Positions 14,900-41,831 of a DNA stretch of 43,785 nucleotides are shown in pieces; the stretch's first letter is position 1, and each line of letters begins with the position of its first letter. This DNA comes from an uncultured Rhodospirillales bacterium (lineage in GTDB: Bacteria; Pseudomonadota; Alphaproteobacteria; Acetobacterales; Acetobacteraceae), in contig CAIMWH010000149.1 of the NCBI GenBank assembly GCA_903845065.1, positions 1 through 43,785 of the forward strand. Direction: 5' to 3'. Made by a program: the position numbers and the translations under genes. The notes beneath the pieces were generated by a model. That model did no database searches, was not told the origin of the DNA, and saw nothing but the letters and a program-made list of their open reading frames with translations.

Positions 14900-15029
14900 G
14901 GGAAGGGGAAGGAAGCAAGGCCAGGGCTTGGCCCGTCGCGCGAAGGCGCGCAACGGACCTGGTGGGGTCGAGGGGCAAAGCCCCCGCCTTGCCTTCCTTC
15001 CCCTCCCTCCCGCCACCCTGGCGCGCCGG
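14879..15029. repeat. 151-bp imperfect palindrome between GGDEF-EAL gene and P1 peptidase gene
   Basis: The left arm (about 14879-14934) and right arm (about 14975-15029) are reverse complements with scattered mismatches. The best-paired core is GGGAAGGGGAAGGAAGCAAG on the left against the reverse complement of CTTGCCTTCCTTCCCCTCCC on the right. The centre holds a smaller hairpin-forming stretch (GCGCGAAGGCGCGC). The left end lies inside the GGDEF-EAL coding region. It looks like a mobile or REP-type intergenic element. I saw no other copy in this window and no clear target duplication. Confidence 0.75.
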
Positions 15030-16062: not shown

Positions 16063-17507
16063 ACGCCATCAGCTTCGACAACCGCTACGCCCGCCTGCCC
16101 CCCCGCTTCTTCGCCCCCCGCCCCCCGGCCCCCGTCGCCGCCCCCCGCCTGATCAAATTCAACACCGCCCTCGCCGCCGAACTCGGCCTCGACCCGGACG
16201 CCCCATGGGCCGAAATCTGCGCCGGCAACCTGGTTCCCGAAGGCGCCGAACCCATCGCCCAGGCCTACGCCGGCCACCAGTTCGGCCACTTCACCCCCCA
16301 ACTCGGGGATGGCCGCGCCGTCCTCCTCGGCGAAGTGATCGATCGCGCCGGCCGCCGCCGCGATATCCAGCTCAAAGGCTCCGGCCGCACCGAATTCTCC
16401 CGCGGCGGCGATGGCCGCGCCGCCCTCGGCCCGGTCCTGCGCGAATATCTGGTCGCCGAAGCCATGGCCGCCCTCGGCATCCCCACCACGCGCGCTCTCG
16501 CCGCCGTCGCCACCGGCGAAGCCGTGCGCCGCGAAACCAACCTCCCCGGCGCCGTCCTCACCCGAGTCGCCGCCAGCCACATCCGCGTCGGCACCTTCCA
16601 GTTCTTCGCCGCCCGCGGCGACACCGAAGCCCTCCGCCTCCTCGCCGACCACGCCATCGCCCGGCACGACCCAGCCGCCGCCAGCGCCGAAAACCCCTAT
16701 CGCGCCTTCCTCCAAGGCGTCATCGCCCGCCAGGCCAGCCTGGTCGCCCAATGGCTCCTCGTCGGCTTCATCCACGGCGTGATGAACACGGATAACTGCG
16801 CGGTGTCCGGCGAAACCATCGACTACGGCCCCTGCGCCTTCCTCGACACCTACGAGCCCGGCAAAGTCTTCAGCTCCATCGACCACGGCGGCCGCTACGC
16901 CTACGCCAACCAGCCCCGCATCGCCGCCTGGAACCTCGCCCGCCTCGCCGAATGCCTGCTGCCCCTGCTCGCCGAAAACACCGACGCCGCCGTCGCCATG
17001 GCCCAGGAAGACCTCGCGGAATTCGGCCCCACCTTCGAAGCCGCCTATGAAACCGGCCTGCGCCGCAAACTCGGCCTCTCCCGCAGCATGCCCGATGACA
17101 TGGCCCTCATCGAAGACCTCCTCGAACGCATGGCCACCAACGCAGCCGACTTCACCCTCACCTTCCGCCACCTCAGCGCCGCCGCCGAAACCCCCACCGC
17201 CGACGCCGCAGTCCGCGCCCAATTCGCCAACCCCAACGCCCTAGACGCATGGCTCCCCGTCTGGCGCCAACGCCTGGCCGCCGAAAACACCGCCCCCGCC
17301 CCCCTCATGCGCGCCACCAACCCCGCCATCATCCCGCGCAACCACCGCATCGCGGAAGCCATCGAAGCCGCCGTCACCAATGACGACTTCGCCCCCTTCG
17401 AGGCCCTCCACGCCGCGCTCGCCACACCGTTCGAGGATCACACCAGCCCCTACGCCGCCGCCCCCCGTCCGGAGCAATGCGTCAGTCAGACGTTCTGCGG
17501 CACGTAG
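16059..17507 (+). CDS. selO: Protein adenylyltransferase SelO (YdiU)
   Basis: Pseudokinase-fold AMPylator of 482 residues, the normal length for bacterial SelO (YdiU/UPF0061). It transfers AMP from ATP to protein hydroxyls. Family blocks are in order: AGHQFGHFTPQLGDGRA, IQLKGSGRTEFSRGGDGRA, then NTDN and IDYGP with the metal-binding Asn/Asp, and NPAIIPRNHRIAEAI near the C-terminus. It ends SQTFCGT, with Cys480 third from the end, the position of the redox Cys (Sec in vertebrate SELENOO). Another Cys occurs at 474. NTDNCAV and GPCAF carry Cys where many relatives have Met or aromatic residues. It overlaps the upstream peptidase gene by four bases, suggesting translational coupling. Confidence 0.93.
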   Translation: MNAISFDNRYARLPPRFFAPRPPAPVAAPRLIKFNTALAAELGLDPDAPWAEICAGNLVPEGAEPIAQAYAGHQFGHFTPQLGDGRAVLLGEVIDRAGRRRDIQLKGSGRTEFSRGGDGRAALGPVLREYLVAEAMAALGIPTTRALAAVATGEAVRRETNLPGAVLTRVAASHIRVGTFQFFAARGDTEALRLLADHAIARHDPAAASAENPYRAFLQGVIARQASLVAQWLLVGFIHGVMNTDNCAVSGETIDYGPCAFLDTYEPGKVFSSIDHGGRYAYANQPRIAAWNLARLAECLLPLLAENTDAAVAMAQEDLAEFGPTFEAAYETGLRRKLGLSRSMPDDMALIEDLLERMATNAADFTLTFRHLSAAAETPTADAAVRAQFANPNALDAWLPVWRQRLAAENTAPAPLMRATNPAIIPRNHRIAEAIEAAVTNDDFAPFEALHAALATPFEDHTSPYAAAPRPEQCVSQTFCGT

Positions 17508-17529
17508 CCGTCAAGCAAGGCTCCGCCGG

Positions 17530-17551
17530 CTAAGGGGCCTCCGCCCCTTAG
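17530..17551 (+). terminator. Hairpin in left arm of the MITE-like element, after selO
   Basis: A 9-bp stem CTAAGGGGC/GCCCCTTAG with a CTCC loop lies 22 bases past the selO stop. There is no U-run, so it is not a classical intrinsic terminator. It could still stop or protect the selO transcript. Both strands can form it. Confidence 0.35.
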
Positions 17552-17727
17552 AACCCACTACTTCTCGCGGCTGGGGCGATGGCCTTCAGCTGTGGGGACA
17601 GGCGAAGCCATTCATATATCGCCGGCATGATCGCGCCCGTTTCGTGCAACTGAACGCCTGCGGCGCAAGCGAAGAGCAGCGTCATCACCTGAAGGCCGGC
17701 GCTGCAGCCGCTCAAACGAAATGGGTT

Positions 17728-17747
17728 CTAAGGGGCGAGCCCCTTAG
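17728..17747 (-). terminator. Hairpin in right arm of the MITE-like element, after glmS
   Basis: An 8-bp stem CTAAGGGG/CCCCTTAG with a CGAG loop lies about 25 bases past the glmS stop on the minus strand. It mirrors the hairpin on the selO side and likewise lacks a U-run. A termination or mRNA-stabilising role is inferred from position. Confidence 0.35.
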
Positions 17748-17771
17748 CCGGCGGAGCCTCGCTTTACCGCT

Positions 17772-28130: not shown

Positions 28131-28137
28131 AGCCAGG

Positions 28138-28293
28138 GATTACAAAGAGACAGCGAGACAGCGAGAGGGAAGAATTTTTCACCACAGAGGCGGTAAGACG
28201 GGAAGAAGAGGGAGTTTACTGATTCTCCCCGTCTTACCGCCTCTGTAGTGGAATTGCTTTCTCCCTGCCCTTCTCGCTGTCTCTTTGTGAATC
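28138..28293. repeat. Palindromic repeat, copy A (156 bp, two-layered)
   Basis: The outer arms contain ACAAAGAGACAGCGAGA on the left and its complement near 28270-28289 on the right. A second, inner pair reads ACAGAGGCGGTAAGACGGG (about 28184-28202) against its complement (about 28228-28247). It lies between the convergent rsmD and isomerase genes. It shares its outer arm with copies at 29574, 31472 and 38785. Confidence 0.85.
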
Positions 28294-28352
28294 TTTGCTA
28301 CGCTGCAGTCATAACCAACGTCCGAGCGATCCCCCCGGCGCAAGCCAATCAC

Positions 28353-29093
28353 TCAGCCCGGCACCGCGAACACGCTCCCCCACCCCATCACCCGCGCCGG
28401 ATCGACGCCCGCCATCGCGAGCCCCTTCCACAGCACCGTCGCACAGGTGTCGAACACCGGCAGCCCGGTCTCCGCCTCCATCGCCGCTGCCACCGGCCCG
28501 CCACGCATATTGGTGCAGATGATGGCGATGGCGTCCGGCTTCTCCGCCGCCACCGCCCGCGTCATCGCCGCCACTTCCGCCTCGCTCACCGTCGAGAACG
28601 AGAAATTATCCTGCCGCCCCAGATGCCGCTCCCCGGCGCACTCCACCCCCAGCGCCGCGTAGTTCGCCAATATCCGCGCCTGCACATCATCGCGATATGG
28701 CGTCACGAACCCCAGCCGCCGAATACCCAGTCGCGTAATGATATCGTTCAAAGCCAGCATCGAGGTCGTCGCCCGTATCCCGGTGGCTGCCTCGATGCGC
28801 GCGCACAGCCGCACATCCGCCTCCCACCCGAGCCACCCGGAGGACGTGCCGCTCCAGCCGATCACATCCACCTTGGCATGCGCCAGCAATTCCGCCGCCC
28901 GCAGGATGGCGCTGTCATCGAACTGCGCCAGCGCCCCCTGCGTCAGCGCGATCTCGGTCACCGGAAAGCGCGAGAAATGCGCCGTCACCTCCGGCACCCC
29001 CCCTAGCATCGCGGTGGTCACCGGCTCCAGCACGGTATTGGAACTCGGCGTCAGAATGCCGAGGCGTCGGCCCGGCAGCGCGTCTATTCCCAC
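28353..29093 (-). CDS. Asp/Glu racemase-superfamily enzyme (maleate isomerase / arylmalonate decarboxylase-like)
   Basis: Cytoplasmic enzyme of 246 residues from GTG 29093. RRLGILTPSSNTVLEP and IICTNMRGGP (Cys193) are typical of the maleate isomerase/arylmalonate decarboxylase branch. Two-cysteine members have a Cys in the first half-site, where this protein reads WSGTSSGW (G82-T83-S84). A Gly-Thr-Ser at that point with a single Cys in the second half resembles, from what I recall, bacterial arylmalonate decarboxylase. A decarboxylase or other one-cysteine chemistry is therefore more likely than classical racemisation; this is inference. The GTG overlaps the upstream membrane-protein gene by 10 bp, with GGAGATC as ribosome site, so translation is probably coupled. 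Confidence 0.75.
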   Translation of the reverse strand: MGIDALPGRRLGILTPSSNTVLEPVTTAMLGGVPEVTAHFSRFPVTEIALTQGALAQFDDSAILRAAELLAHAKVDVIGWSGTSSGWLGWEADVRLCARIEAATGIRATTSMLALNDIITRLGIRRLGFVTPYRDDVQARILANYAALGVECAGERHLGRQDNFSFSTVSEAEVAAMTRAVAAEKPDAIAIICTNMRGGPVAAAMEAETGLPVFDTCATVLWKGLAMAGVDPARVMGWGSVFAVPG

Positions 29094-29455
29094 ACGATCT
29101 CCGTTGCGTTCAGCGCCGCCCGCGCGGCATGGAAGCTGTAGAAGAGCAGCCCGACGCCGAGGGTGGCAATACAAACCAGCAACCAGATCACCACCACGCG
29201 CATTTCGCGCTCCACGTCATACGTGCAGCGCAGCCGCCCCATGGTGCGCCCCTGCGCATCGGTGATGCGGGTGAAATTGATCACCAACTTGAAAAAATGC
29301 CCGCTCACGATGATCCAGCCCAGCCCCAGCGTGCAGGCACTCACCAGCAGCCAGACCATGAAGGGGATCCACACGTCCGCGAGCCGCATATCGTTGCGGA
29401 ATTTCAGGTTGACGAAATCGCCCCCCATGGCCGCGCGGCCCAGCGATGCGCTCAT
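29084..29455 (-). CDS. Small two-helix membrane protein of unknown function
   Basis: Hypothetical inner-membrane protein of 123 residues. Two hydrophobic helices are clear (VWIPFMVWLLVSACTLGLGW and VVVIWLLVCIATLGVGLLFY), separated by a polar loop with LVINFTRITDAQG and MGRLRCTYDVEREMR. Arrangement and content recall DUF898-like or DUF6693-like proteins; I cannot assign a function. ATG 29455 is preferred because AAGGA lies 6 bases upstream; ATG 29479 in frame is the alternative. Its stop overlaps the GTG of the isomerase-like gene, so the two are probably made together. Palindrome copy B lies between it and mutL. Confidence 0.65.
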   Translation of the reverse strand: MSASLGRAAMGGDFVNLKFRNDMRLADVWIPFMVWLLVSACTLGLGWIIVSGHFFKLVINFTRITDAQGRTMGRLRCTYDVEREMRVVVIWLLVCIATLGVGLLFYSFHAARAALNATEIVWE

Positions 29456-29573
29456 CTTTGTTCCTTCCCCGTTCGCCATATCCTGCCCTTAGGCGGCCTA
29501 ACCGGGCAAGCCGCACTGACATGGATCAAGCCCATCGCTCGAACATGCCGCCGCGCGCAGCGCAAAAAAGCAT

Positions 29574-29640
29574 CACAACAAGACGGCAAGACAGCGAGAT
29601 AGGGCAGGGGGGAGACCTTGTTTCTCGCTGTCTCGTTGTG
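29574..29640. repeat. Palindromic repeat, copy B (67 bp)
   Basis: The left arm CACAACAAGACGGCAAGACA with adjacent GCGAGA pairs with TCTCGCTGTCTCGTTGTG on the right (29623-29640), with one small insertion on the left. It lies 24 bp beyond the mutL stop, between mutL and the small membrane-protein gene, both on the minus strand. It is the most diverged copy of the family. Confidence 0.75.
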
Positions 29641-29664
29641 AACCTTCCTTGTGTCAGGTGCGTC

Positions 29665-31449
29665 CTACCGCCGCCCGAACAACCGCTCGATCTCCGCCCG
29701 GCTCAGCTTGAGGAACGTCGGCCGCCCATGGCTGCACGTCGCCGCCCGCGGCGTCGCCTCCATCTGCCGCAGCAGCGCATCCATCTCCGGCCCCGCCAGC
29801 CGCCGCCCGGCCCGAATGGAGCCATGGCACGCCATCCGCGCGATCACCGCGTCCAGCCGCGCATCCAGCGCCGTTGTCTCGTCCTGCTCGGCCAATTCAT
29901 CCGCCAAATCCCGCAGCAGCGGCTTCGGCTCCGGCGCCCCCAGCGCCGCCGGCAACGCCCGCACCAGGATCGCGCCAGGCCCGAACGCCTCGATCTCCAA
30001 CCCCAGCCGCCCCAGCACCGGCGCATGCTCCATCAGCCGGATACAGTCCGACGCCGCCATATCCACCACCGCCGGCAACAGCAACGGCTGTGACCTGACG
30101 CCCCCCTCCAGCAACTGCCCGCGCAACGCCTCATGGGTCAACCGCTCATGCGCCGCATGCTGGTCCACCAGCACCAGGCTGCCATCCGCCGCCACCGCGA
30201 TGATGTAGGTATCCAGCACCTGCGCCAACGGCGCCCCTAGCGGGAAATCTCCCGATGAATATCCCCGGGGTGGCGCCTCGGCGGTAAACGGCCCATGAAA
30301 CCGATCCGGCGCCGGCAGCGTCCGCGCCGAAGGCGTATCCGCCAATGGCAACCGCGCCTCGGCAAAACCCGCCGACACCGGCCGCCCCCCGCCACCCAGC
30401 CGCATAGGCGGCCGAGACTGAAACTGCCGCGCCTCCATCACCAACGGCGCCGCCGGCCCCGCCCCGCCCGACAACGCCCGCCCCAGCCCGCCGATCACCA
30501 GGCCGCGCACCGAATCGGCTTCGCGAAACCGCACCTCCGCCTTCGCCGGATGCACATTCACATCCACATCCTCGGCCGGCAGATCCAGGAAAACCGCTAC
30601 GATCGCGTGCCGCCCCATCGCGATCACATCGCGATATGCCACCCGCACCGCGGTCCGCAGCAACGGGTCCGCCACCGGCCGCCCATTGACGATCAACGTC
30701 TGCGCCGCCGCCGTCGCCCGCGTCACCGTCGGCGCGCAGGCAAACCCGGTCAGCCGCATCTCGCCCCGCGTCGCATCGATCGGCAGCAACGCCCCCGCCG
30801 CCTCCGCCCCCAGCAACGCCGCAATCCGCCCCGCCCGATCCTGCCGCGGCAAATCGAACGCAACGCGACCATCCGTCTCGAACCGGAACGCCACCCCCGG
30901 CGCCGCCAGCGCCAACCGCCGCACCGCCGTCTCCACCGCATCCGTCTCCGCCCGCGCCGACTTCAAAAACTTCCGCCGCGCCGGCGTCGCATAGAACAAG
31001 TCCCGCACCACCACCCGCGTGCCAACGCCGCCCGGCGCCGGCGTCACCGCCGAAACCGCCCCGCCCTCCACCGTGATGGTCGCCGCATTCTCCGCCCCCG
31101 CCGTGCGCGAGGTAATCGCCAACCGCGCCGCCGCCCCGATCGACGGCAACGCCTCGCCGCGAAACCCCAGGGTATCGATCCGCACCAACTGGTCGTCGCT
31201 CAGCTTCGAAGTGGCATGCCGCAACACCGACAGCGCCAACTCGTCGCCCGTCATCCCCAGCCCGTCATCCGCCACCTCGATCCGCTCGATCCCCCCCCCG
31301 GCGATCGAAACCGCGATGCGCGTCGCCCCGGCATCCAGCGCATTCTCCACCAACTCCCGCGCCGCCGCCGCCGGCCGCTCGATCACCTCGCCGGCCGCAA
31401 TCCGATTAACCGTCGCCTCGGACAGCAGCCTGATCCGGCTAACGGTCAT
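29665..31449 (-). CDS. mutL: DNA mismatch repair protein MutL (endonuclease type)
   Basis: Mismatch-repair ATPase of 594 residues. The N-terminal GHKL ATPase is complete: LSEATVNRIAAGEVIERPAA, ELVENALDAGA, VADDGLGM, TLGFRGEAL and NGRPV. The C-terminal domain holds the endonuclease metal motif DQHAAHERLTHE (429-440), then ACHGSIRAG-like (MACHGSIRAG) and CSHGRP near the end. It is therefore of the nicking type used by bacteria without MutH. ATG 31449 is chosen; a TTG 27 bases upstream lies inside palindrome copy C and is unlikely. No clear ribosome site is seen. pgi lies upstream on the same strand, separated by the repeat. Confidence 0.95.
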   Translation of the reverse strand: MTVSRIRLLSEATVNRIAAGEVIERPAAAARELVENALDAGATRIAVSIAGGGIERIEVADDGLGMTGDELALSVLRHATSKLSDDQLVRIDTLGFRGEALPSIGAAARLAITSRTAGAENAATITVEGGAVSAVTPAPGGVGTRVVVRDLFYATPARRKFLKSARAETDAVETAVRRLALAAPGVAFRFETDGRVAFDLPRQDRAGRIAALLGAEAAGALLPIDATRGEMRLTGFACAPTVTRATAAAQTLIVNGRPVADPLLRTAVRVAYRDVIAMGRHAIVAVFLDLPAEDVDVNVHPAKAEVRFREADSVRGLVIGGLGRALSGGAGPAAPLVMEARQFQSRPPMRLGGGGRPVSAGFAEARLPLADTPSARTLPAPDRFHGPFTAEAPPRGYSSGDFPLGAPLAQVLDTYIIAVAADGSLVLVDQHAAHERLTHEALRGQLLEGGVRSQPLLLPAVVDMAASDCIRLMEHAPVLGRLGLEIEAFGPGAILVRALPAALGAPEPKPLLRDLADELAEQDETTALDARLDAVIARMACHGSIRAGRRLAGPEMDALLRQMEATPRAATCSHGRPTFLKLSRAEIERLFGRR

Positions 31450-31471
31450 GCGCGCGCCAGCAAGGCAGATG

Positions 31472-31538
31472 CACAAAGAGACAGCGAGACAGCGAGAAGG
31501 CAGAACCTTTCTTCTCGCCGTCTCGCTGTCTCTTTGTG
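31472..31538. repeat. Palindromic repeat, copy C (67 bp)
   Basis: This is the cleanest copy of the family. The arms are CACAAAGAGACAGCGAGAC plus AGCGAGAAG (left) and the complement ending GCTGTCTCTTTGTG (right), with a single mismatch over about 28 positions. The loop is about 10 bases. It lies between pgi and mutL, only 23 bp before the mutL start codon, so any mRNA crossing it would carry a strong hairpin next to the mutL start. Confidence 0.88.
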
Positions 31539-31557
31539 AAAACCTTCCCGCGACCCC

Positions 31558-33207
31558 TCAAGCATCCCCCCGCAAAGCCCGAAACCGCCCAATCAGCGCC
31601 ACCGTCGAAGCATCATGCCCCCCCACCGCCGCTCCCGGCTGCAAGTCGGGCAATATCCCCTTGGCCAACACCTTGCCCAGTTCCACCCCCCACTGGTCGA
31701 AGCTGTTCACCCCCCACAGGAACCCCTGCACCGCCACCTTGTGCTCGTACAGCGCAATCAGCCGCCCCAGCGTGAATGCATCCAGCCGCTCGAACAAAAT
31801 CGTCGTGCTCGGCCGGTTTCCCACGAACACCCGATGCGGCGCAATCCGCGCGATATCCGCCTCCGCCACCCTCGCGGCGCGCATCTCCGCCACCACCTCA
31901 TCGAGCGCCTTCCCCCGCAGCAGCGCCGCCGCCTGCGCCAGCGCATTGGCCGCCAGAATCCGATGCGCCTCCGCCCGGTCATGGTCGGGCACCGCCGCCA
32001 GGATGAAGTCCACCGGCACCGGGCTCGTCCCCTGATGCACCAGCTGCATGAAGCTGTGCTGCGCATTGGTGCCAGGTTCGCCGAAGATCACCGGGCACGT
32101 CCGCCCCTCCACCGGCGCCCCGTCCAGCCCCACCGACTTGCCGTTGCTCTCCATCTCCAACTGCTGGAGAAACGCCGGAAACCGCCGCAGCCGGTCATCA
32201 TACGCCAGCACGCACTGCTGCCCGTAGCCCATGATGTTCACGTGCCAGATCCCCACCAGCGCCAGCAGCACCGGCAGGTTGTCGGCGAAATCAGCCTCGC
32301 GGAAGTGCGCGTCCATATGCCGCCCGCCATCCAGCATGGCCTGGAACTGCTCCCACCCCGCCGCCAGCGCGATCGACAGCCCCACCGGCGACCACAGCGA
32401 GAACCGCCCGCCCACCCAGTCGCGGAATCCGAACACCCGCTCCGCCGCAATCCCGAACCCCGCCACCGCCGGCAAATTGGTCGACAGCGCGGCGAAATGC
32501 ATCGCCACCGCCGCCTCACCCAGCGCCCCGGCAATCCACCCACGGATCGCCCGCGCATTGGTCATCGTCTCGTCGGTAGTGAAGGTCTTGGAGGCCACCA
32601 GCACCAGCGTGCGCGCCGGATCAAGCTCGCGCATCACCGCCGCCGCCCCGGTGCCATCCACATTGGACAGGAACCGCGCCCGCATCCGCCCACCGCGTGC
32701 CAGCGTCAACGCCTCGGTCGCCATCAACGGCCCGAGGTCCGACCCACCGATGCCGATATTCAGCACGGTGTCGAACGTCAGCCCGCTCGCCCCGCACAGC
32801 CGCCCGTCATGCACCGCGGCCACAAACGCCGCCATCCGCTCCCGCTCGCCCGCCGCACTGGCGCTGGCGTGTTCATCGAGCGCCATCATCCCATCGCCCG
32901 CGTGGGACCGCAGCGCCATATGCATCGCCGCCCGCCCCTCGGTCGGGTTCACCATCGCGCCGGCGAACAACCGCTGGCGGAACCCGTCCAGCCCCGCCTC
33001 ATGCGCCAGGTCGAGCAGCCCCACCAGGCTATGCCCATCGATCGCCGTCTTGGAGAAATCGAGCGTCATGTCGCCCAGCACCGCGCTGAACCGGCGCGGC
33101 CGGTCCGGATCGGCGGCAAACAAGGCGCGAATGTCATGCGCGCCGGGACGCGCGGCAAGGCCGGCAAGATGCCGCCAAGCCGACCGGGTAATGGAATCGG
33201 ATGCCAT
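31558..33207 (-). CDS. pgi: Glucose-6-phosphate isomerase
   Basis: Cytoplasmic glycolytic/gluconeogenic enzyme of 549 residues interconverting glucose-6-phosphate and fructose-6-phosphate. Both family signatures are present: DWVGGRFSLWSPVG in the middle and NSFDQWGVELGK near the C-terminus. NIGIGGSDLGPLMATEAL, TFTTDETMTNA and EPGTNAQHSFMQLVHQGT are also present, covering the sugar-phosphate site and catalytic Glu/His region. Length is standard. Its product feeds GlmS, whose gene lies at 17772. It follows the DUF3035-type lipoprotein gene by 73 bp on the same strand and ends 20 bp before palindrome copy C. Confidence 0.96.
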   Translation of the reverse strand: MASDSITRSAWRHLAGLAARPGAHDIRALFAADPDRPRRFSAVLGDMTLDFSKTAIDGHSLVGLLDLAHEAGLDGFRQRLFAGAMVNPTEGRAAMHMALRSHAGDGMMALDEHASASAAGERERMAAFVAAVHDGRLCGASGLTFDTVLNIGIGGSDLGPLMATEALTLARGGRMRARFLSNVDGTGAAAVMRELDPARTLVLVASKTFTTDETMTNARAIRGWIAGALGEAAVAMHFAALSTNLPAVAGFGIAAERVFGFRDWVGGRFSLWSPVGLSIALAAGWEQFQAMLDGGRHMDAHFREADFADNLPVLLALVGIWHVNIMGYGQQCVLAYDDRLRRFPAFLQQLEMESNGKSVGLDGAPVEGRTCPVIFGEPGTNAQHSFMQLVHQGTSPVPVDFILAAVPDHDRAEAHRILAANALAQAAALLRGKALDEVVAEMRAARVAEADIARIAPHRVFVGNRPSTTILFERLDAFTLGRLIALYEHKVAVQGFLWGVNSFDQWGVELGKVLAKGILPDLQPGAAVGGHDASTVALIGRFRALRGDA

Positions 33208-33280
33208 CCCCGCAGTCTAGCCCACCGCCGCCAGCGGGTGGAAACATTTCCCCCGCCGCCAGCCGCTCAGCCCACGCGGA

Positions 33281-33847
33281 TCAGAACCCGAAGATCGACT
33301 TGCTCTTCGGCATGATGATCGTCGTCGTGCCTTCCTGGTTGCTCTGCCCCAGCGCCGCGTTCTCGCGCAGCCGCTGCGCCTCGGCGGTGGGATTCACCAC
33401 CACGCCCGGCTCCGGCGGCAGCTTCCAGAACATCAGCTTGTCGGTGAAGCCCGGCTTGGGCGCATCGATCGCCGACAGCGCGTTGACGGTATTGCGAATA
33501 TCCGCCGGCGCCGCCGGCCCTGCGGCCCGTACCAGCGCCTGCTGCCCGGGGGTCATGCCCGCCTGCGGCTGCAATGCCGCCTGCGGCACCAGCACCGAGG
33601 CCGCCGCCGAGCGCGAACTCACCTCCTGCGGCCGTGTCGCGCCAGGCTGCGGCGGCGTCAGCATATACGCCGGCGGCATCGACAGCGGCGCCCGCGTCGT
33701 CACCTGGAACTCGTCCGGCGCATCGCGTGACAGGCCGAATTGGCGGGCGATATCGCTGCCGCAGCCGGTAAGGCCGAGCAGGCTGCCGCACAGCAGGGCG
33801 GGAACAAGAAACCGGGAACGCGAAGCGGGGGGGGCGAGTTGGCGCAT
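33281..33847 (-). CDS. DUF3035-type lipoprotein
   Basis: Predicted lipoprotein of 188 residues. The signal peptide ends in a lipobox (LLGLTGCGSD), with Cys about residue 28, so it should be lipidated and cleaved by signal peptidase II. The mature part is low in hydrophobicity, rich in Pro, Ala and Gln, and includes RDAPDEFQVTTRAPLSMPP, typical of the alphaproteobacterial DUF3035 family. ATG 33847 is preceded by AAGGA at 6 bases. The gene directly follows lspA, which encodes the peptidase that would process it, 10 bp apart. Function is unknown; an envelope role is inferred. Confidence 0.82.
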   Translation of the reverse strand: MRQLAPPASRSRFLVPALLCGSLLGLTGCGSDIARQFGLSRDAPDEFQVTTRAPLSMPPAYMLTPPQPGATRPQEVSSRSAAASVLVPQAALQPQAGMTPGQQALVRAAGPAAPADIRNTVNALSAIDAPKPGFTDKLMFWKLPPEPGVVVNPTAEAQRLRENAALGQSNQEGTTTIIMPKSKSIFGF

Positions 33848-33857
33848 AGGCTGTTCC

Positions 33858-34394
33858 TTACTTCTCCCCGGGCGCGGCGGCAAGGCGCTCCGGATCGTGG
33901 GCCGGGTCTTGTTTCGGCTTGCCGGGATGCCGCATTCCATCGAGCACCAGCACCGCAACGCCGCAAACGATCGCGGCATCGGCAACGTTGAACACATACC
34001 ACGACCAGCCCATCACATGGGCATGAATGAAATCGACCACCGCGCCGAAACGCGCCCGGTCGATCACATTGCCGATCGCCCCACCCGCCACCGCCCCCAG
34101 CGCGATCGCCACCACCATCCGCTCGGCGCGAAACAGCCAGACGGTAAGAAACCCCACCACCGCCAACGCCACCGCCGCCAGCATGAAGCCCGCCCAGGCG
34201 CTCTGGCTGGTCAGCAGCCCGAACGTGATGCCATGGTTCCACACCATCGTCAGGTTCAGCACCGGCAGCACCGGCACGCTCACCAACTCCGGCAGCCGCA
34301 ACACCTCCAGCACCCACCACTTGCTCGCCTGGTCAGCCGCCAGCACCACCAACGCGGTGACGGCGCCGAACCAGACGCGCGAATTGCGGCTCAT
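33858..34394 (-). CDS. lspA: Lipoprotein signal peptidase (signal peptidase II)
   Basis: Inner-membrane aspartyl protease of 178 residues that removes signal peptides from lipidated prolipoproteins. Four hydrophobic helices are visible. The catalytic pair is Asp121 in GNVIDRARFGAVVDFI and Asp139 in YVFNVADAAI, close to the E. coli positions. VWNHGITFGLL corresponds to the conserved N-x-G-x-(A/S)-F-like block. ATG 34394 overlaps the ileS stop by four bases (ATGA), the common ileS-lspA coupling in proteobacteria, although the frame is open upstream to 34598. The DUF3035-type lipoprotein gene follows 10 bp later. Confidence 0.94.
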   Translation of the reverse strand: MSRNSRVWFGAVTALVVLAADQASKWWVLEVLRLPELVSVPVLPVLNLTMVWNHGITFGLLTSQSAWAGFMLAAVALAVVGFLTVWLFRAERMVVAIALGAVAGGAIGNVIDRARFGAVVDFIHAHVMGWSWYVFNVADAAIVCGVAVLVLDGMRHPGKPKQDPAHDPERLAAAPGEK

Positions 34395-37210
34395 GCGGCG
34401 ACGGTCTTGGTCACCAGGCCCGAGTCGACAGCATCGGTGCACCGCAAGCACAACGTCGGATGCGCATGCACCGAGCCCACCTCGGGCAACACCTTCCAGC
34501 ACCGCGCGCACTTGTCGCCCGGCGCCAGCGCCGTCGCCACCGAAGTCTCGTCCCCCCGCTTCGTCGCAGCCGCCGACACGATCAACACCTCGGCCCACTC
34601 GGCGCCTGACAGCAGGGTCTCCTCCGCTTCCGGCAACCCAAGCTCCACCGCCGCCTGCAACGAGGAGCCGATCTTGCCGTCCCGCCGCATGCCCTCAAGT
34701 GCCGTCGTCGCCTCGCCGCGCCGCGCCCGGATCACCGTCCAGCGATCCGCCAACGCCTGGTCGCGCCACCGCTCCGGCACATCGGGGAAATCCTGCAAAT
34801 GCACGCTGGTCTCCTCGCCGAACCGCGCCGTCCACGCCTCCTCGGCGGTGAACACCAGCACCGGCGCCAGCCAGGTGCACAGGCAGCGGTGCAGATGATC
34901 CAGCACCGTCCGCGCCGCCCGCCGGCGAATACTATCCGGCCGATCGCAATACAGCGCATCCTTGCGAATATCGAAGTAGAACGCCGAGAGATCCGTCGAG
35001 CAGAAACTATGCAGCGCCGGATAAACCCCGGCCCAGTCATGGCTATCCACCGCGCCCCGCACCTGGCCGTTCATCTCCCACAACCGATGCAGCACCCATC
35101 GCTCCAACTCCGGCATCTCCGCCTCCGGCAGATGCTCCGCCGGCGTGAACCCATCGAGGCTCCCCAGCAGCCAGCGCAACGTATTGCGCAACCGCCGATA
35201 CAACTCGGCCGTCTGCTTCAAAATCTCCGGCCCGATCCGCTGGTCCTCGGTGATATCGGTGTTCATCACCCACAACCGCAGGATATCGGCGCCATACTTG
35301 TCCCACACCTCCTGCGGCGCAGTGGTATTGCCCAATGACTTGGACATCTTGCGCCCCTGCTCATCGAGCGTGAATCCATGCGTCAGCACCGCCTTGAACG
35401 GCGCCACCCCACGGCTCCCCACCGATTCCAGCAGCGAGGAATGGAACCACCCGCGATGCTGGTCCGTCCCTTCCAGATACAAATCCGCCGGCCACGGCAA
35501 CTTGCGCTGCTCCAGCACGAACGCGTGGGTGGAGCCCGATTCGAACCACACATCCACGATATCCATCACCTGCTCGTAGTCGTCCGGATCGCGGTCCTGC
35601 CCGAGGAAGCGTGACGGCGGCGAGGAATACCACGCATCCGCCCCCTCCTCGGTGAACACATCGACAATCCGCCGCACCACCTCGGGATCGCGCAACGGCT
35701 GCCCCGACGCCTTCTCGACGAACACCGCGATCGGCACCCCCCACGCCCGCTGCCGCGAGATGCACCAGTCCGGCCGCGCCGCGATCATCGAGTCCAGCCG
35801 CGTCCGCCCCGCCGCCGGCACGAAATCCGTCTCCGCGATCGCCTTGCGGGCGAGTCCACGAATATCCTCCGGCCCATCCATCCGGATGAACCACTGCGGC
35901 GTCGCCCGGAAAATCAACGGCGCCCGCGAACGCCAGGAATGCGGGTACGAATGCACCAGCTTCCCCCGCCCCATCAGCCCACCGGCATCCTTGAGCGCCG
36001 CGCACATCGCGTCGGCCACCTTGTAGACATGGTGCCCGGCGAACATCGGCACCCACGGATTATAGGTGCCGTCATCCCCCACCGTCTCCGGCACCTCGAT
36101 CTTGTGCGCCCGGCCCAGATGGAAGTCGTCCTCGCCATGGCCCGGCGCGATATGCACCAGCCCGGTGCCCGCCTCGGTGGTGACGAAATCCCCCGGCAGG
36201 AGTGGGACGGGGAAATCGTACCCTTTCCCATGGAGCGGGTGATGGCAAACGGTTCCCGCCAGTTCTTCGCCGGTAAACACATGCAACACGTGATGCGTCG
36301 CGACTTTTGCCTCGGAGCAAAAGCTTGGAAGAAGCTTCAGGCCAACCACGACCGTCTCACCCGGAACCGCCATTGATCCGGCTTCGACGGAATCAATTCG
36401 CACCAGAGCGTATTCAATCTCCGGCCCATAGGCGATCGCCCGGTTGCCAGGCATGGTCCACGGAGTGGTCGTCCAAATGATGACCGAAGCGCCAAGCAGT
36501 GAATCACGCTTCGGCGTCGGCGGACCCGACCGCGACACGATGAAGATCGGAAACCGCACGAAAATCGTCGTGCTGGTATGGTCGTGATACTCGATCTCCG
36601 CCTCCGCCAGCGCCGTCTTCTCCACCGGCGACCACATCACCGGCCGCAACCCGCGGAACAACGCCCCGTTGAGCAGGAACTTGCCGATCTCCCCGGCAAT
36701 CGCCCCCTCTGACGGCAAATCCATCGTCGCATACCGCTCGTCCCACGCCCCGAACACGCCGAGCCGCTTGAACTCCTCGCGCTGCACCCCCAGCCAATGC
36801 TCGGCATACGCCCGGCATTCGGCGCGGAACTGCAAAATCGGCACCGCATCCTTGTCCCGGCCGGACTTGCGGTATTCCTCCTCGATCTTCCACTCGATCG
36901 GCAGCCCGTGGCAGTCCCACCCCGGGATATACAGCCCGTCGAACCCCGCCATCTGCCGGCCGCGATTGATCACGTCCTTCAGGATCTTGTTGAGCGCGTG
37001 CCCGATATGCAGGTTGCCGTTCGCATACGGCGGCCCGTCATGCAGGATGAACTTCTCCCGCCCATGCGAATTGGCGCGGATGCGCTCCCAGATGCCCATC
37101 TTCGCCCAGCGCGCAAGGATGGCCGGCTCCTTCTTCGGCAGGTCGCCGCGCATGGGAAACGGCGTCGCCGGCAGGAAAACCGTGTCGCGATAGTCTCGGG
37201 TCTGGCTCAT
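34391..37210 (-). CDS. ileS: Isoleucyl-tRNA synthetase
   Basis: Class I aminoacyl-tRNA synthetase of 939 residues, normal bacterial length. HIGH is at 68-71 (GNLHIGHALNK), KMSKS at 621-625 (KMSKSLGNTT), and a C-terminal zinc-binding segment CARCWK...CLRC at about 900-925. The CP1 editing domain shows IWTTTPWTMPGNRA and GTGLVHIAPGHGEDD. ATG 37210 is chosen; a longer frame to 37318 crosses non-coding sequence. Part of the editing domain (about 36200-36550) has visibly lower GC and different codon use than the rest, which may indicate a recombined segment. It lies between ribF upstream (127-bp gap) and lspA. Confidence 0.97.
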   Translation of the reverse strand: MSQTRDYRDTVFLPATPFPMRGDLPKKEPAILARWAKMGIWERIRANSHGREKFILHDGPPYANGNLHIGHALNKILKDVINRGRQMAGFDGLYIPGWDCHGLPIEWKIEEEYRKSGRDKDAVPILQFRAECRAYAEHWLGVQREEFKRLGVFGAWDERYATMDLPSEGAIAGEIGKFLLNGALFRGLRPVMWSPVEKTALAEAEIEYHDHTSTTIFVRFPIFIVSRSGPPTPKRDSLLGASVIIWTTTPWTMPGNRAIAYGPEIEYALVRIDSVEAGSMAVPGETVVVGLKLLPSFCSEAKVATHHVLHVFTGEELAGTVCHHPLHGKGYDFPVPLLPGDFVTTEAGTGLVHIAPGHGEDDFHLGRAHKIEVPETVGDDGTYNPWVPMFAGHHVYKVADAMCAALKDAGGLMGRGKLVHSYPHSWRSRAPLIFRATPQWFIRMDGPEDIRGLARKAIAETDFVPAAGRTRLDSMIAARPDWCISRQRAWGVPIAVFVEKASGQPLRDPEVVRRIVDVFTEEGADAWYSSPPSRFLGQDRDPDDYEQVMDIVDVWFESGSTHAFVLEQRKLPWPADLYLEGTDQHRGWFHSSLLESVGSRGVAPFKAVLTHGFTLDEQGRKMSKSLGNTTAPQEVWDKYGADILRLWVMNTDITEDQRIGPEILKQTAELYRRLRNTLRWLLGSLDGFTPAEHLPEAEMPELERWVLHRLWEMNGQVRGAVDSHDWAGVYPALHSFCSTDLSAFYFDIRKDALYCDRPDSIRRRAARTVLDHLHRCLCTWLAPVLVFTAEEAWTARFGEETSVHLQDFPDVPERWRDQALADRWTVIRARRGEATTALEGMRRDGKIGSSLQAAVELGLPEAEETLLSGAEWAEVLIVSAAATKRGDETSVATALAPGDKCARCWKVLPEVGSVHAHPTLCLRCTDAVDSGLVTKTVAA

Positions 37211-37337
37211 GAATGATCTCGTGCGGCCATCTGCCGCGTCAGGGGAAAAGGCGCAGGCGTCAGGTCCCGGCGCTCTACCGAGCGGCCGGGCGCATAATTC
37301 GCGCCTGAAAGGTCCCATACATGCGAACTACTATAGC

Positions 37338-38270
37338 TTAGAGCGGCGCCAGCCGGTCAAGAATCACCCTTGCCTCGGCGCAATCGGCAGCTATGCGGGC
37401 GCGCAGCTCATCCAGCCCGGAAAACTTCTGCTCCGGCCGCAGGAACGCATGCAGCGCCACCGACACTTCGAGCCCGTACAAATCGCCCGCGAAGTCGAAC
37501 AAATTCACCTCCAGCCGGCTCTCCGGCCCGGCGTTCACCGTCGGCCGCCGCCCGATATTCGCCGCGCCATGCCGAACCGTCCCATCCGGCAACGTCACCG
37601 TCACCGCATACACCCCCCGCGCCGGCTCCAGATGCCGCCCGAGCGCGATATTGGCGGTGGGAAACCCGATCGTCCGCCCCCGCGCATCCCCATGCGCCAC
37701 CACGCCGCGAATGGCCCACGCCCGCCCCAGCTTCTCGTTCGCCCGCTCCGGATAGCCATCCTGCAACGCCCGGCGAATACGGCTCGACGAGATCTGCCCC
37801 ACATCATCCATCAACGGCGGCACCACCGTCAGCCCGATCCCCAACGCCTCCGCCCGCGCCGCGAGAAACGCCACATCACCACCCCGCCGATGCCCGAACG
37901 CGAAATCCGGCCCGCACACCAAATGCCGCGCGCCCAGCCCCGCATGCAGCACCTCGGCCACAAACGTCTCCGCCGTCATGTTGCTGAACGCCGCATCGAA
38001 CGGCATTTCGTACAGCAGCCCCACCCCCAGCATCGCCAGCGCCACCGCCCGCTCGGCGGTCAGCGTGAGCCGAAACGGCGGATCATCCGGCCGAAACACC
38101 TCGCGCGGATGCGGCTCGAAACTCAGCACCGCCAGCGGCGCATCCGGCCGCGCCGCATGGCCGATCCGCAGCAGATGGGCATGCCCGCGATGCACCCCGT
38201 CGAAATTCCCCAGCGCCACCACCGCGCCCCGCGCGCTCTCCGGCAGCCCGCGCCAGTCGTGGTAGATCAC
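37338..38270 (-). CDS. ribF: Bifunctional riboflavin kinase / FAD synthetase
   Basis: Cytoplasmic enzyme of about 310 residues that makes FMN and FAD. The N-terminal FAD synthetase domain has ALGNFDGVHRGH and GPDFAFGHRRGGD, followed by SSSRIRRALQDG. The C-terminal flavokinase has GRTIGFPTANI and RHGAANIGRRPTV, then EVNLFDFAGDLYG. GTG 38270 (or the adjacent GTG 38273) gives the standard length; the open frame extends upstream into the MaoC gene without support. It starts about 5 bp after the MaoC-gene stop, so the two are likely co-transcribed. ileS follows after 127 bp. Confidence 0.93.
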   Translation of the reverse strand: MIYHDWRGLPESARGAVVALGNFDGVHRGHAHLLRIGHAARPDAPLAVLSFEPHPREVFRPDDPPFRLTLTAERAVALAMLGVGLLYEMPFDAAFSNMTAETFVAEVLHAGLGARHLVCGPDFAFGHRRGGDVAFLAARAEALGIGLTVVPPLMDDVGQISSSRIRRALQDGYPERANEKLGRAWAIRGVVAHGDARGRTIGFPTANIALGRHLEPARGVYAVTVTLPDGTVRHGAANIGRRPTVNAGPESRLEVNLFDFAGDLYGLEVSVALHAFLRPEQKFSGLDELRARIAADCAEARVILDRLAPL

Positions 38271-38275
38271 CACCC

Positions 38276-38698
38276 CTAGCCGCGCGACGGCGGCAACACC
38301 ACCGCCTCGCCCTCGATCACCGTCTTGCCCGCCACCGTGCAAGTCGTCTTCAACGTCGCCTGCTTCTTCGCCGCGTCGATGGCGGTCACCTCGCACGTCG
38401 CCGTCACCGTATCCCCGATCTTCACCGGCCGGCGAAACCGCAGCGTCTGCCCCAGATAGATCGACCCAGGCCCCGGCAGCTTCGTCCCCAGCACCGCGCT
38501 GATCAGCCCCGCCGACAGCATCCCATGCGCAATCCGCTCCTTGAACTGCGAAGCCGCCGCCACCTCCGCATTCAGATGCACCGGATTGGTATCCATGCTG
38601 ACAGCCGCGAACATCAGGATATCCGCCTCGGTAATCGTCTTGCCGATACTGGCCGACTGCCCGACCTGAAGATCCTCGAAAAACACGCCGTCACTCAT
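38276..38698 (-). CDS. MaoC-family dehydratase, (R)-specific enoyl-CoA hydratase-like
   Basis: Single hot-dog-fold protein of 140 residues. The catalytic dyad of (R)-hydratases is present as Asp36 and His41 in FAAVSMDTNPVHLN, and FKERIAHGMLSAGLISAVLGTKLPGPG is a strong MaoC/PhaJ-type block. It probably hydrates enoyl-CoA to (R)-3-hydroxyacyl-CoA, linking beta-oxidation to polyhydroxyalkanoate or another pathway. ATG 38698 is used; the frame is open upstream but that part is not protein-like. ribF follows on the same strand. It is divergent from the hydratase at 38915, with palindrome copy D in between. Confidence 0.87.
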   Translation of the reverse strand: MSDGVFFEDLQVGQSASIGKTITEADILMFAAVSMDTNPVHLNAEVAAASQFKERIAHGMLSAGLISAVLGTKLPGPGSIYLGQTLRFRRPVKIGDTVTATCEVTAIDAAKKQATLKTTCTVAGKTVIEGEAVVLPPSRG

Positions 38699-38784
38699 GG
38701 TCCGCTTCCCATCCTGGTGCCCCATTGTTTTGGCGCGCCCCGGTGCCGGAAGCAAGGCAAGCCAGCCAGACAGCGCGGATTGAC

Positions 38785-38861
38785 CACCGAGACACAGAGA
38801 CAGCGAGAAGCAGAACAAGCCCATTGCGTCCCTTGCTTCTCCCTGTCTCTGTGTCTCTGTG
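38785..38861. repeat. Palindromic repeat, copy D (77 bp)
   Basis: The arms are GAGACACAGAGACAGCGAGA plus AGCA on the left and TGCTTCTCCCTGTCTCTGTG plus TCTCTGTG on the right, with about two mismatches over 28 positions and a loop of about 20 bases. Unlike the other copies it sits between divergent genes (MaoC hydratase and keto-pentenoate hydratase), where promoters rather than terminators are expected. Confidence 0.82.
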
Positions 38862-38914
38862 GTGAACCTGCTTGCTCACGTGCCGCCACACCCGAAAAAC
38901 CGAGGAAACCCCAA

Positions 38915-39725: not shown

Positions 39726-41831
39726 ATGCCGCCGCCCGCCATCATCATCAACAACCAGCGCGACCTGATCGCGGCCTTCGCCACCATCGACCTCGCGAAC
39801 ACGCCCGGCACCTACACGATGACCCTGGGCCAGAACGTCCAGCTCGGCGGCGATATCGGCCTCTACGTTCCCTTCGGCGCGACCGTCACCCTCAACGGCA
39901 GCGGCTTCAATCTCTTCGGCGCCTTCTCCTTCGCCATCAGCGGCGCCGGCACCATCGTCCTCAACGCCACCAACCTCGCCACCGGCAGCGGCTCCGGCTA
40001 TGCCGGCTCACCGCTCGCCATCCTCGGCAACGCGGTGGTCGAACTCGCCCGCCCCGATGCCGGCGGCCTCGGCCTGATCGCCTTCAACACCACCTACTAC
40101 AACACCGGCGCCACCCTGCGCGTCGATGGCGCCACCCCACCGCTCAACCCGATCGGCCTCGAAGGCGGGTCAAACCTGCACAACACCATCGACCTCACCG
40201 GCATCAGCAGCACCGCGAAATTCACCACCCTCGATCTCGGCCAGGCGCTCGACATCCCGCTCACCGGCGGCGGCACAGCAGTCCTGCAACTCACCAACGC
40301 CTCGGGCTACCACAACTTCCTCCTCGTCCCCGACGGCAGCGGCGGCACCCTCGTGCTCCCCACCAACCAAACCGTCGCCAACGCCGTCCTCGTCGCCGGC
40401 GTCGGCAGCGCCATCCTGAGCCTGCCCCTCGGTGACCCCCTCGCCGCCGGCCCGGCCCAGAACGTCGTCGGCCCCATCAACAACGGCGTCACCCTCGGCA
40501 CTCTCATCCCGTTTGACCTCGCGGGCGGCCCACCCCCCACCGTGCCCTCCGGCAAAGCCCTCGAACTCATCACCCAAACCACCGGCAGCTTCACCATCCC
40601 CGCCACCGCCGGCGCCTTCGTCGACTCCGCCACCGGCCCCGTCAGCCTCCACGGCAGCAAGACCGCCGGCGTCACCGTCGCCAGCGGCAACGGCGGCCTC
40701 ACCTACACATCGGACACCGGCACCGCGAGCGTCATGGCCGGCGGCGGCACCAACTTCCTCGCCTTCGCCGCCCAGTCCAAGCCCCAGTTCGCCCTCCTCG
40801 GCGGCGGCACCAACACCGTCCTGGCGGACGGTGCCGACACCGTGCAAACCGCCGGCGGCAACAACCTCATCGTCCTCGGCCACGGCGCCTCCACCGTCAT
40901 CTCCGCCGCCGCCGACACCATCCTCGGCGGCACCGCCCCCGCCTATATCGACGCCAGCACCGGCACCCCCTTCAATTCGGACGTCGTGTTCCTCGGCGCC
41001 GGGGATGCCACCTTCGGCGGCGGCAACGCCACCACCCTCGTGGGCGGCAGCGGCAACGCCACCATCCAGACCTTCATTGCCTCCCCCCGCCCCTCGCTCT
41101 ACTTCCTCGGCACCGCCAACAACTCCGTCCTCGGCACCGGCGCCGACACCATCGTCGCCAGCAGCGGCACCGCCACCATCACCGAGAGCGCCGCCCTGAT
41201 CTTCGCCGGCTCCGGCACCCTCAACCTCCAGGTCAGCAACGCCCACCCCGGCGTCACCACCCTCGTCGGCAGCGCCAGCGGTGCCACCACCATCACCGGC
41301 GAGGGCCAACTCCTCGCCTTCGCCAACGCCCCACTGACCTACAACAGCAACTACGGCGCCGCGACCATCGTCAGCAGCGGCGCGGCGATCAACGTCTACG
41401 GCGGCTCAGCCGGCGGCAACGTGTTCATCGGCGGCTCGGCAGGCGGCAATAACATCTACGGCGGCAACGGCGGCTACCTCTCGCCCGCCGCCGTCATAGT
41501 CGCCGGCGGCAACGGCGATACACTCTGGGCCGGCAATGGCAACGCCATCATCCAGGCCGGTAGCGGCGCCGAGACACTGATTGGCGGTTCCTACCAATTC
41601 GGCGGACTCGACCTCTTCGCCTTCACCCACGGCACCGTCGGCACCATCGAGGTGCTGAGCTTCAGTCCGGCTCGCGATTATTTGACATTGACCGGTTTCC
41701 CCGCCGGCGAAGCCGCCGCCGCCCTCGGCTCCGCCACAACTTCCGCCGGCTCTGAGACTCTCGCGCTATCCGACGGGACTCACATAACATTCCAAGGCTT
41801 TACCGGCCTCACAACCGCCAGCTTCCTGTAA
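39726..41831 (+). CDS. Large repetitive beta-roll protein, probable type I-secreted surface protein
   Basis: Protein of 701 residues rich in Gly, Ala, Thr, Asn and Ser, with no N-terminal signal peptide. The first third reads like a beta-helix (TVTLNGSGFNLFGAFSFAISGAG). From about residue 330 there are many short glycine-rich strands such as GGGTNTVLADGADTV, GAGDATFGGGNATTLVGGSG and GGNGDTLWAGNGNAIIQAGS, a degenerate RTX-like pattern rather than regular nonapeptides. The C-terminus SETLALSDGTHITFQGFTGL resembles endings of type I-secreted proteins in Acetobacteraceae. Secretion and calcium binding are inferred. No exporter genes are adjacent. The 50-bp gap after the hydratase suggests its own ribosome site; none is strong. 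Confidence 0.7.
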   Translation: MPPPAIIINNQRDLIAAFATIDLANTPGTYTMTLGQNVQLGGDIGLYVPFGATVTLNGSGFNLFGAFSFAISGAGTIVLNATNLATGSGSGYAGSPLAILGNAVVELARPDAGGLGLIAFNTTYYNTGATLRVDGATPPLNPIGLEGGSNLHNTIDLTGISSTAKFTTLDLGQALDIPLTGGGTAVLQLTNASGYHNFLLVPDGSGGTLVLPTNQTVANAVLVAGVGSAILSLPLGDPLAAGPAQNVVGPINNGVTLGTLIPFDLAGGPPPTVPSGKALELITQTTGSFTIPATAGAFVDSATGPVSLHGSKTAGVTVASGNGGLTYTSDTGTASVMAGGGTNFLAFAAQSKPQFALLGGGTNTVLADGADTVQTAGGNNLIVLGHGASTVISAAADTILGGTAPAYIDASTGTPFNSDVVFLGAGDATFGGGNATTLVGGSGNATIQTFIASPRPSLYFLGTANNSVLGTGADTIVASSGTATITESAALIFAGSGTLNLQVSNAHPGVTTLVGSASGATTITGEGQLLAFANAPLTYNSNYGAATIVSSGAAINVYGGSAGGNVFIGGSAGGNNIYGGNGGYLSPAAVIVAGGNGDTLWAGNGNAIIQAGSGAETLIGGSYQFGGLDLFAFTHGTVGTIEVLSFSPARDYLTLTGFPAGEAAAALGSATTSAGSETLALSDGTHITFQGFTGLTTASFL

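Follow-up and report, generated by a model that had tools for sequence, protein, structure and literature searches.

The window analysed here comprises 43,785 nucleotides of contig CAIMWH010000149.1 (assembly GCA_903845065.1) from an uncultured Rhodospirillales bacterium of the Acetobacteraceae. Four dispersed palindromes, copies A to D, lie in its right-hand part, and this study concerns their relation to the small genes of the GxxExxY family, which stand elsewhere between arms of the same kind. The arm sequence changes in step with the GxxExxY protein, which suggests an unrecognised kind of small mobile element. None of the four copies is assigned to a strand. Copy A (28131..28299; inverted repeat 28131-28207/28223-28299) is a composite in which a type-1 palindrome holds a complete type-3 palindrome inside its loop. 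The outer type-1 arms are pattern matches at 28141-28166 and about 28264-28289, and the inner type-3 arms, at about 28180-28206 and 28224-28250, are the same as those of a gene-bearing element on another contig (C125). Copy B (29574..29640) is a type-1 palindrome with a partly decayed left arm, situated between a small gene (29084-29479, minus strand) and mutL (minus strand). Copy C (31472..31538), also of type 1, has nearly perfect 28-bp arms (31472-31499/31511-31538, 96%) and is flanked by mutL and pgi, both on the minus strand. Copy D (38775..38871; 38775-38812/38834-38871, 87%) is of type 2 and lies between divergent genes (38276.. on the minus strand and 38916.. on the plus strand). The gene names rsmD, mutL and pgi were assigned by eye, without a search, and are presumed identities. 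The settings first given for the copies (convergent for A, a same-strand run for B and C, divergent for D) agree with the reading of the open reading frames (ORFs).

Folded as single-stranded DNA, each copy beats all 200 dinucleotide shuffles (z = -12.5 for A, -4.4 for B, -9.5 for C and -8.8 for D), and the four palindromes are borne out at the positions originally proposed as strong hairpins, far beyond chance. With up to three mismatches allowed, the arm pattern CACAAMGAGACRGCGAGA matches the window 11 times, whereas shuffles predict 0.07 matches; every match is at or right of 28141, and the statement that the left 28 kb holds none therefore stands. Copies A and C do share 25 identical arm bases, ACAAAGAGACAGCGAGACAGCGAGA. 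The arms are short tandem arrays with units of about 8 bp, and the stems measure about 26-30 bp. The type-1 word, ACAAMGAG.ACRGCGAG.ACRGCGAG.AAG, is found in the outer palindrome of A and in B and C. Copy D carries the type-2 word CCACAGAG.ACACAGAG.ACAGGGAG.AAG (its right arm reads CCACAGAG.ACACAGAG.ACAGGGAG), and the inner palindrome of A, which itself reads CCACAGAG.GCGGTAAG.ACGGGAAG, carries the type-3 word CCACAGAG.RCGGTAAG.ACGGGRAG. As D belongs to a sister type, the four copies represent three related types. This refines the preliminary description, in which all arms were built on the same word; the second pair of arms it had seen nested in A forms a real palindrome, with a different word. 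In a pool of 88 arm ends from the window's own genome (41 left, 47 right), conservation continues for about 13 bp outside the first unit, reading roughly G-c-AAG-n-AAG-n-TTC, before it weakens. The window has two more long inverted repeats, at 14879-15029 (48 nt at 71%) and 17506-17771 (33 nt at 91%, 200 nt between the arms), which contain AAGGAAGCAAGG- or CAAGCAAGG-like runs resembling this border. In another genome (G083:C1:232599-232675), consecutive 10-bp CACAGATAAA units occur, as though an arm had been extended to form a tandem array.

The palindromes are dispersed over the window's own genome (G000; 5.9 Mb, 380 contigs, 96% complete). With up to three mismatches, the type-1 arm has 106 matches and the reversed control none; the arms are thus present well beyond the window. 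Sixty elements on 45 contigs were compiled by hand. Genome-wide, 20 pairs lie at most 11 kb apart, against a mean of 4.3 and a maximum of 13 in 3000 simulated placements, for which the lengths of some contigs were approximated. Four copies within 11 kb are therefore unusual for random placement, as had been suspected, but other contigs show the same clustering. Ten contigs (C9, C84, C96, C146, C188, C222, C249, C308, C320 and C364) begin or end inside or beside palindromes; the assembly therefore seems to break there, and the copy number is probably underestimated. Of 39 elements, naive gene calling assigns 19 to same-strand, 6 to convergent and 5 to divergent settings; a further 7 overlap a called ORF, and 2 lie at a contig edge. 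This assignment is rough, as D is counted as ORF-overlapping, A as same-strand and B as convergent, contrary to the ORF reading.

Nesting is not confined to copy A. Type 3 is found at six loci of the genome, four of which lie inside the loop of another palindrome (window copy A, C241, C308 and C320, the last two cut by contig ends). The other two are a GxxExxY element (C125) and a locus close to a broken type-2 palindrome where contig C84 ends. Two further type-3 matches with three mismatches (C249 and C328) were taken as chance. Loops represent a minute share of the genome and therefore look like favoured entry points. A GxxExxY gene sitting in a loop is the same arrangement as that of the nested palindromes. 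At the break at the start of C320, a type-3 arm nested in a type-2 palindrome is followed by the same AAGAGGTGTTT as in the GxxExxY gene of C125 (loci compared: L054 at the start of C320, and L049 at 3780-3830); a second gene copy was possibly lost there at the contig break.

Long stable stems beside gene ends might also act at the RNA level, by terminating transcription, stabilising transcripts or serving as processing hairpins, in the manner of the intervening sequences (IVSs) of 23S rRNA, which have a terminal stem. The IVS of Coxiella 23S rRNA is similar in size (428 nt) and encloses an ORF, and the gene-bearing elements described below resemble it as small selfish elements of about half a kilobase with an enclosed ORF (PMC4990558). 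Unlike IVSs, the elements studied here lie between protein genes, and copies A to D are located between protein ORFs, not inside 23S rRNA. Between 27000 and 40000, nine terminator-like sites were counted against 9.0 expected; the stems of A to D form none of them, and one (38900-38914) lies about 36 bp right of D. Rfam gave no match at gathering thresholds, and no rRNA match was obtained in the window. The family PF05635 (S23/IVP) was matched in 0 of 120 genomes of the family Acetobacteraceae, in a search that also matched 0 of 14 controls. Among sense-strand mismatches in 17 same-strand elements, 16 are G.U and 23 are A.C (p = 0.34); selection at the RNA level, which would favour G.U, is therefore not supported and was rejected. 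Moreover, divergent settings are occupied too (5/39). The stabiliser or terminator role considered earlier thus found no support, and an explanation by RNA elements is very improbable indeed.

A comparison was made with four congeners (G001-G004, about 75% identity). Spacer B is empty in G001 and G002, spacer C in G001, G002 and G004 (in G003 it is about 106 bp shorter), and spacer D in G002, G003 and G004. Two cases are uninformative, namely the B spacer of G004, which consists of about 1 kb of other DNA, and D in G001, where the gene to its left does not align. Copy A lies outside the comparison, with its flanking genes on separate contigs in G001-G003 and the right-hand gene missing in G004. 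In the comparable congeners, the orthologous spacers of B, C and D are thus empty rather than occupied by the same element at the same place.

The distribution is patchy on a larger scale. Of 60 genomes searched, type 1 was detected in three, the window's own and, with a few arms, G001 and G002; the remaining 57 gave no match. Among 120 family genomes, five contain type 2 (1 to 91 matches each), and among 398 phylum genomes two contain a mixed pattern. In a collection of named genomes, at least 119 stretches hold the two-armed type-2 pattern. The record titles among the matches listed include Acidobacteria, Planctomycetota, Verrucomicrobia, Sorangium, Spirosoma, Chloroflexi, Gemmatimonadetes, Spirochaetes and Alpha-, Beta- and Gammaproteobacteria, among others, although some titles are labels of metagenome-assembled genomes and may be wrong. 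Among the matches listed for these 119 stretches, facing arm pairs number 157; in 152 of them the arms are less than 150 bp apart, i.e., form empty palindromes, and one of the remaining five wider pairs holds a GxxExxY gene. Arm pairs 429 and 812 bp apart (L225 and L190) have mismatched words and no GxxExxY gene and look like chance. The two-armed type-2 pattern also occurs in 18 stretches of viral contigs. BLAST of copy A against plasmids and of copy D against phages and plasmids gave no match, and carriage by plasmids or phages was rejected on this basis.

Copy number could alternatively be under selection in a system useful to the host, with the palindromes binding a chromosomal protein for chromosome organisation or recombination control and GxxExxY as a partner. 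The conserved unit words, the genomic clustering, the placement near gene ends and the many conserved gene loci (see below) would fit such a system; the patchy presence in relatives, the empty spacers and the nesting in loops would not, and it is considered improbable.

The link to a protein family was found on contig C125 of the window's own genome, where type-3 arms about 0.4 kb apart, matching the inner palindrome of A, enclose an ORF. By profile comparison, the predicted protein is a member of the GxxExxY family (TIGR04256, 145.1 bits, cut-off 35) and of the PD-(D/E)XK superfamily (PF13366, PDDEXK_3, 141.3 bits, cut-off 22). Residues D64, E74 and K76 are invariant in seven aligned sequences headed by the C125 protein, and the D...E-x-K positions are invariant in all three alignments (4 to 7 sequences each); they are taken to be the catalytic residues, by analogy with the superfamily. 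No solved structure was matched by sequence up to E = 1 or by Foldseek at E <= 0.001. A second structural comparison, with 284 Foldseek-ranked chains, placed Rep15 first (Z 6.6), followed by the PD-(D/E)XK enzymes BglII (5.5) and Hjc (5.4), all three within the tool's warning range for a mere common arrangement; the homing endonuclease I-Bth0305I appears at Z 4.7. The modelled structure is only consistent with a PD-(D/E)XK fold.

The association of arms and gene extends beyond this locus. A first scan, covering arm pairs with an ORF of at least 80 aa, identified a GxxExxY gene in 4 of 4 facing arm pairs 150-2500 bp apart (L049, L126, L230 and L231). Genes were also collected by profile, regardless of arms, and are present in 15 of 120 family and 65 of 398 phylum genomes. 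The set comprises 107 distinct genes whose flanks were usable, with identical cores collapsed and 3 contig-edge genes and 15 partial hidden Markov model hits left out. The flanking inverted repeat scores at least 15 in 73 of the 107 and at least 12 in 89; none of 265 control intervals with matching geometry, taken from other parts of 53 of the loci, reaches 15. The two arms of a gene are more alike than the arms of other genes of the same word class (median 20.5 vs 9.5), and the own-arm score exceeds 19 of 20 others in 65 of 95 genes. Arm words vary by locus (CACAGAG, CGCAGAG, CACGAAG, CGCCAAG, CGCAGAT, CACGAAT, CACGGAA and others). The gene-bearing elements are about half a kilobase long, with units of about 8-10 bp and arms enclosing one GxxExxY gene; where examples were inspected in detail, the ORF runs from a start inside or beside the left arm to an end at or within the right one. 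GxxExxY is rare both on plasmids (7 of 72,556 records with one query protein) and in viral contigs (one locus in each of two scans).

Furthermore, the arm word follows the protein clade. On the tree, the 95 labelled genes require a single change of word class (...AG versus ...AT/AA/AC), compared with 20 to 28 changes in 300 shuffles. With automatic labels only (79 genes), there is one change against a shuffle minimum of 14, and with a single representative for each cluster at 65% identity (45 of the 51 clusters being labelled) one against a minimum of 7 in 500 shuffles. The tree is a quick maximum-likelihood tree of 107 proteins and 118 alignment columns, in which 46 of 104 forks are unresolved, but the branch setting apart most of the AT side has a support of 97. 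No word could be assigned to twelve of the 107 genes; among the 95 labels, 16 are manual ones based on the arms, without blinding to the protein type. Proteins of the GLLES type, among them that of C125 and its Verrucomicrobia relative on L126, pair with ...AG words, and those of the GFLEK/GFLEA and GHG-LEKPY types with GAT, AAT, GAA or GAC. Finer words follow the tree as well: AAG/GAG changes 8 times, compared with at least 16 in shuffles, and the words of the AT clade change 4 times, compared with at least 8. One genome (G018) has genes of both clades, each with its own word, so a genome-wide composition effect does not account for the pairing. Moreover, the ...AG class persists across proteins only about 46% identical (L126 and L408). 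This suggests a constraint on the ...AG word, which may reflect its recognition.

Palindromes and gene were also compared within one bacterial family (f60), in a sample of 74 genomes, 45 with a GxxExxY gene and 29 without. Of the 45 gene-positive genomes, 41 contain AG arms, compared with 12 of the 29 gene-negative ones (p = 8e-6; medians 15 and 0). When only genomes with a completeness of 90% or more are counted, the figures are 21 of 22 and 7 of 17. The association is specific to the word. GAT arms are present in all 11 genomes with a GAT-flanked GFLEK gene and in 16 of the 34 other gene-positive ones (p = 0.0014), whereas AG arms are alike in the two sets (10/11 and 31/34). The 11 genomes were picked by hand from fetched loci, and some of the other 34 may hold such a gene. 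Reversed-pattern controls gave 4 matches against 392 for GAT and 2 against 1192 for AG, and the arms of the gene itself contribute a few matches to these counts. AG-pattern matches reach 191 in one genome.

Taken together, the palindromes are probably gene-less members of a two-part family, comparable to miniature inverted-repeat transposable elements (MITEs), whose arms would be recognised as DNA by GxxExxY proteins. Several results weigh against this interpretation. Gene and arms descend jointly, and covariation alone therefore does not prove recognition; joint descent accounts for part of it. Most gene-bearing loci look old and immobile, since of 285 homologous gene pairs 212 have flanking DNA in common, 65 have none in common and 8 are undecided; gene-bearing elements thus seem to move rarely. 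Most of the 212 pairs appear to come from f60, as old, vertically kept loci. Type-1 arms were not seen around any GxxExxY gene, and the single gene found in the window's own genome has type-3 arms; for the commonest type of the window (B, C and outer A), no cognate gene is among the GxxExxY genes located, in searches that did not extend to G001 and G002. The flanking repeat scores below 15 in 34 and below 12 in 18 of the 107 genes, 12 of the 107 have no assignable word, and only the cut-off of 15 separates cleanly, because 19 of 265 control intervals reach 12. In f60, AG arms are present in 12 and GAT arms in 10 of the 29 genomes without the gene. Of the five genomes in the Acetobacteraceae sample that show the type-2 pattern, four have the gene and the fifth, with one arm only, lacks it; of the 115 without the pattern, 11 have it nonetheless. 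The structure model of GxxExxY, built from four sequences, is weak (predicted local distance difference test, pLDDT, 64). Finally, no target duplication was identified, the congener spacers being too diverged (about 75%) to fix borders.

Some of these observations could be explained by another, unseen enzyme, e.g., a HUH or DDE transposase, which would move the palindromes, the GxxExxY genes being passengers that entered loops and then co-descended. Indeed, the palindromes far outnumber the genes, gene-negative genomes with palindromes exist, a gene-less type-3 palindrome can also occupy a loop, and the single GxxExxY gene of the window's own genome cannot by itself explain type 1. On the other hand, Y1_Tnp (PF01797) had no match in this 96% complete genome, in a search that matched 5 of 14 controls and had other transposase families outside its scope, and neither the word-clade covariation nor the word-specific genome association is expected of a plain passenger. 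Such an enzyme is therefore regarded as unlikely. The transposase suggested earlier as the mover gives way to a GxxExxY PD-(D/E)XK protein, the enzyme to which the association points.

The nearest described systems are the REPtrons, i.e., repetitive extragenic palindromic (REP) sequences or REPINs with REP-associated tyrosine transposases (RAYTs), and the TIRtrons, tyrosine transposases flanked by terminal inverted repeats (TIRs) (PMC3733652). Common features are dispersed intergenic palindromes in several phyla, several types per genome, and a gene flanked by inverted repeats that also stand alone as a family. Here, unlike in those systems, no Y1/HUH enzyme was found, no fixed GTAG/CGTC tag is present, the stems of about 26-30 bp consist of tandem words, and the flanked gene encodes a predicted PD-(D/E)XK protein. 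Within 16 nt outside 89 arm ends, GTAG occurs 11 times and CGTC 5 times, with about 4.5 each expected by a rough uniform estimate; GTAG is thus about twofold over this estimate, yet a small minority without a fixed position in the pooled flanks. Identity with RAYT/REP was rejected for lack of a Y1_Tnp match and of a fixed GTAG/CGTC tag. The preliminary comparison with REP/MITE-like sequences consequently holds in outline (many copies, empty spacers for B, C and D, patchiness and nesting), but the fit to REP, with no Y1/RAYT found, no fixed tag and stems of this length, does not.

By the general definition of MITEs, empty orthologous sites (spacers B, C and D in congeners) are a shared feature, whereas the proposed partner, which is not a known transposase, sets the palindromes apart; no target duplication was seen beside the diverged congener spacers. 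Termini are shared with a gene-bearing element for type 3 (C125, whose autonomy is putative); for types 1 and 2, the profile search found no such element in the window's own genome. The palindromes are also like MITEs, as presented in passages on Thiomargarita (PMC4853749), in being short, gene-less, inverted-repeat, present in many copies and mostly intergenic. With PD-(D/E)XK homing endonucleases, the elements share a small selfish gene for an enzyme of the superfamily; unlike with these, neither an intron or intein nor a fixed allelic target was seen, and the recognised word would sit in the element's own arms.

If GxxExxY proteins are indeed the partners of the palindromes, they would recognise the repeated unit word of the arms as DNA, either as duplex or as extruded hairpin, and would cut at the arm words. 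More speculatively, new copies may arise by cut-and-repair between genes or inside the loops of palindromes already in place, and at the strand level this repair may proceed from extruded hairpins. A role as protein-binding sites, also raised earlier, would form part of this preferred reading. It can tentatively be proposed that these elements represent a new minimal class of mobile element, in which a lone GxxExxY nuclease gene within a palindrome of tandem words would spread, in trans, gene-less palindromes of the same word across phyla and into loops, the protein clade setting the word specificity; this broader proposal may well not hold.

In the open-licence PubMed Central (PMC) literature, no paper was recognised as describing the palindrome family or its link to GxxExxY, mostly judged by title or opening and with subscription papers outside the scope; the arm words led to no relevant paper there either. 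Two papers mention GxxExxY incidentally, one close to a reverse transcriptase in a CRISPR-like setting (PMC8934634) and the other in a table of virus genes (PMC12085832). The window also contains, at 39726-41831 (plus strand), a 701-aa Gly/Ala-rich ORF with repeated GGxG-type motifs, which by eye resembles RTX-like or surface repeat proteins.

The palindromes are abundant in some genomes and present in many phyla, and GxxExxY has no described role in the literature searched. The covariation amounts to a direct, testable code, in which GLLES-type proteins go with ...AG words and GFLEK-type proteins with ...GAT words. If the proposed reading is true, short palindromes would spread by means of a nuclease, outside the HUH/RAYT and DDE transposases, and the orphan protein family GxxExxY would acquire a role.

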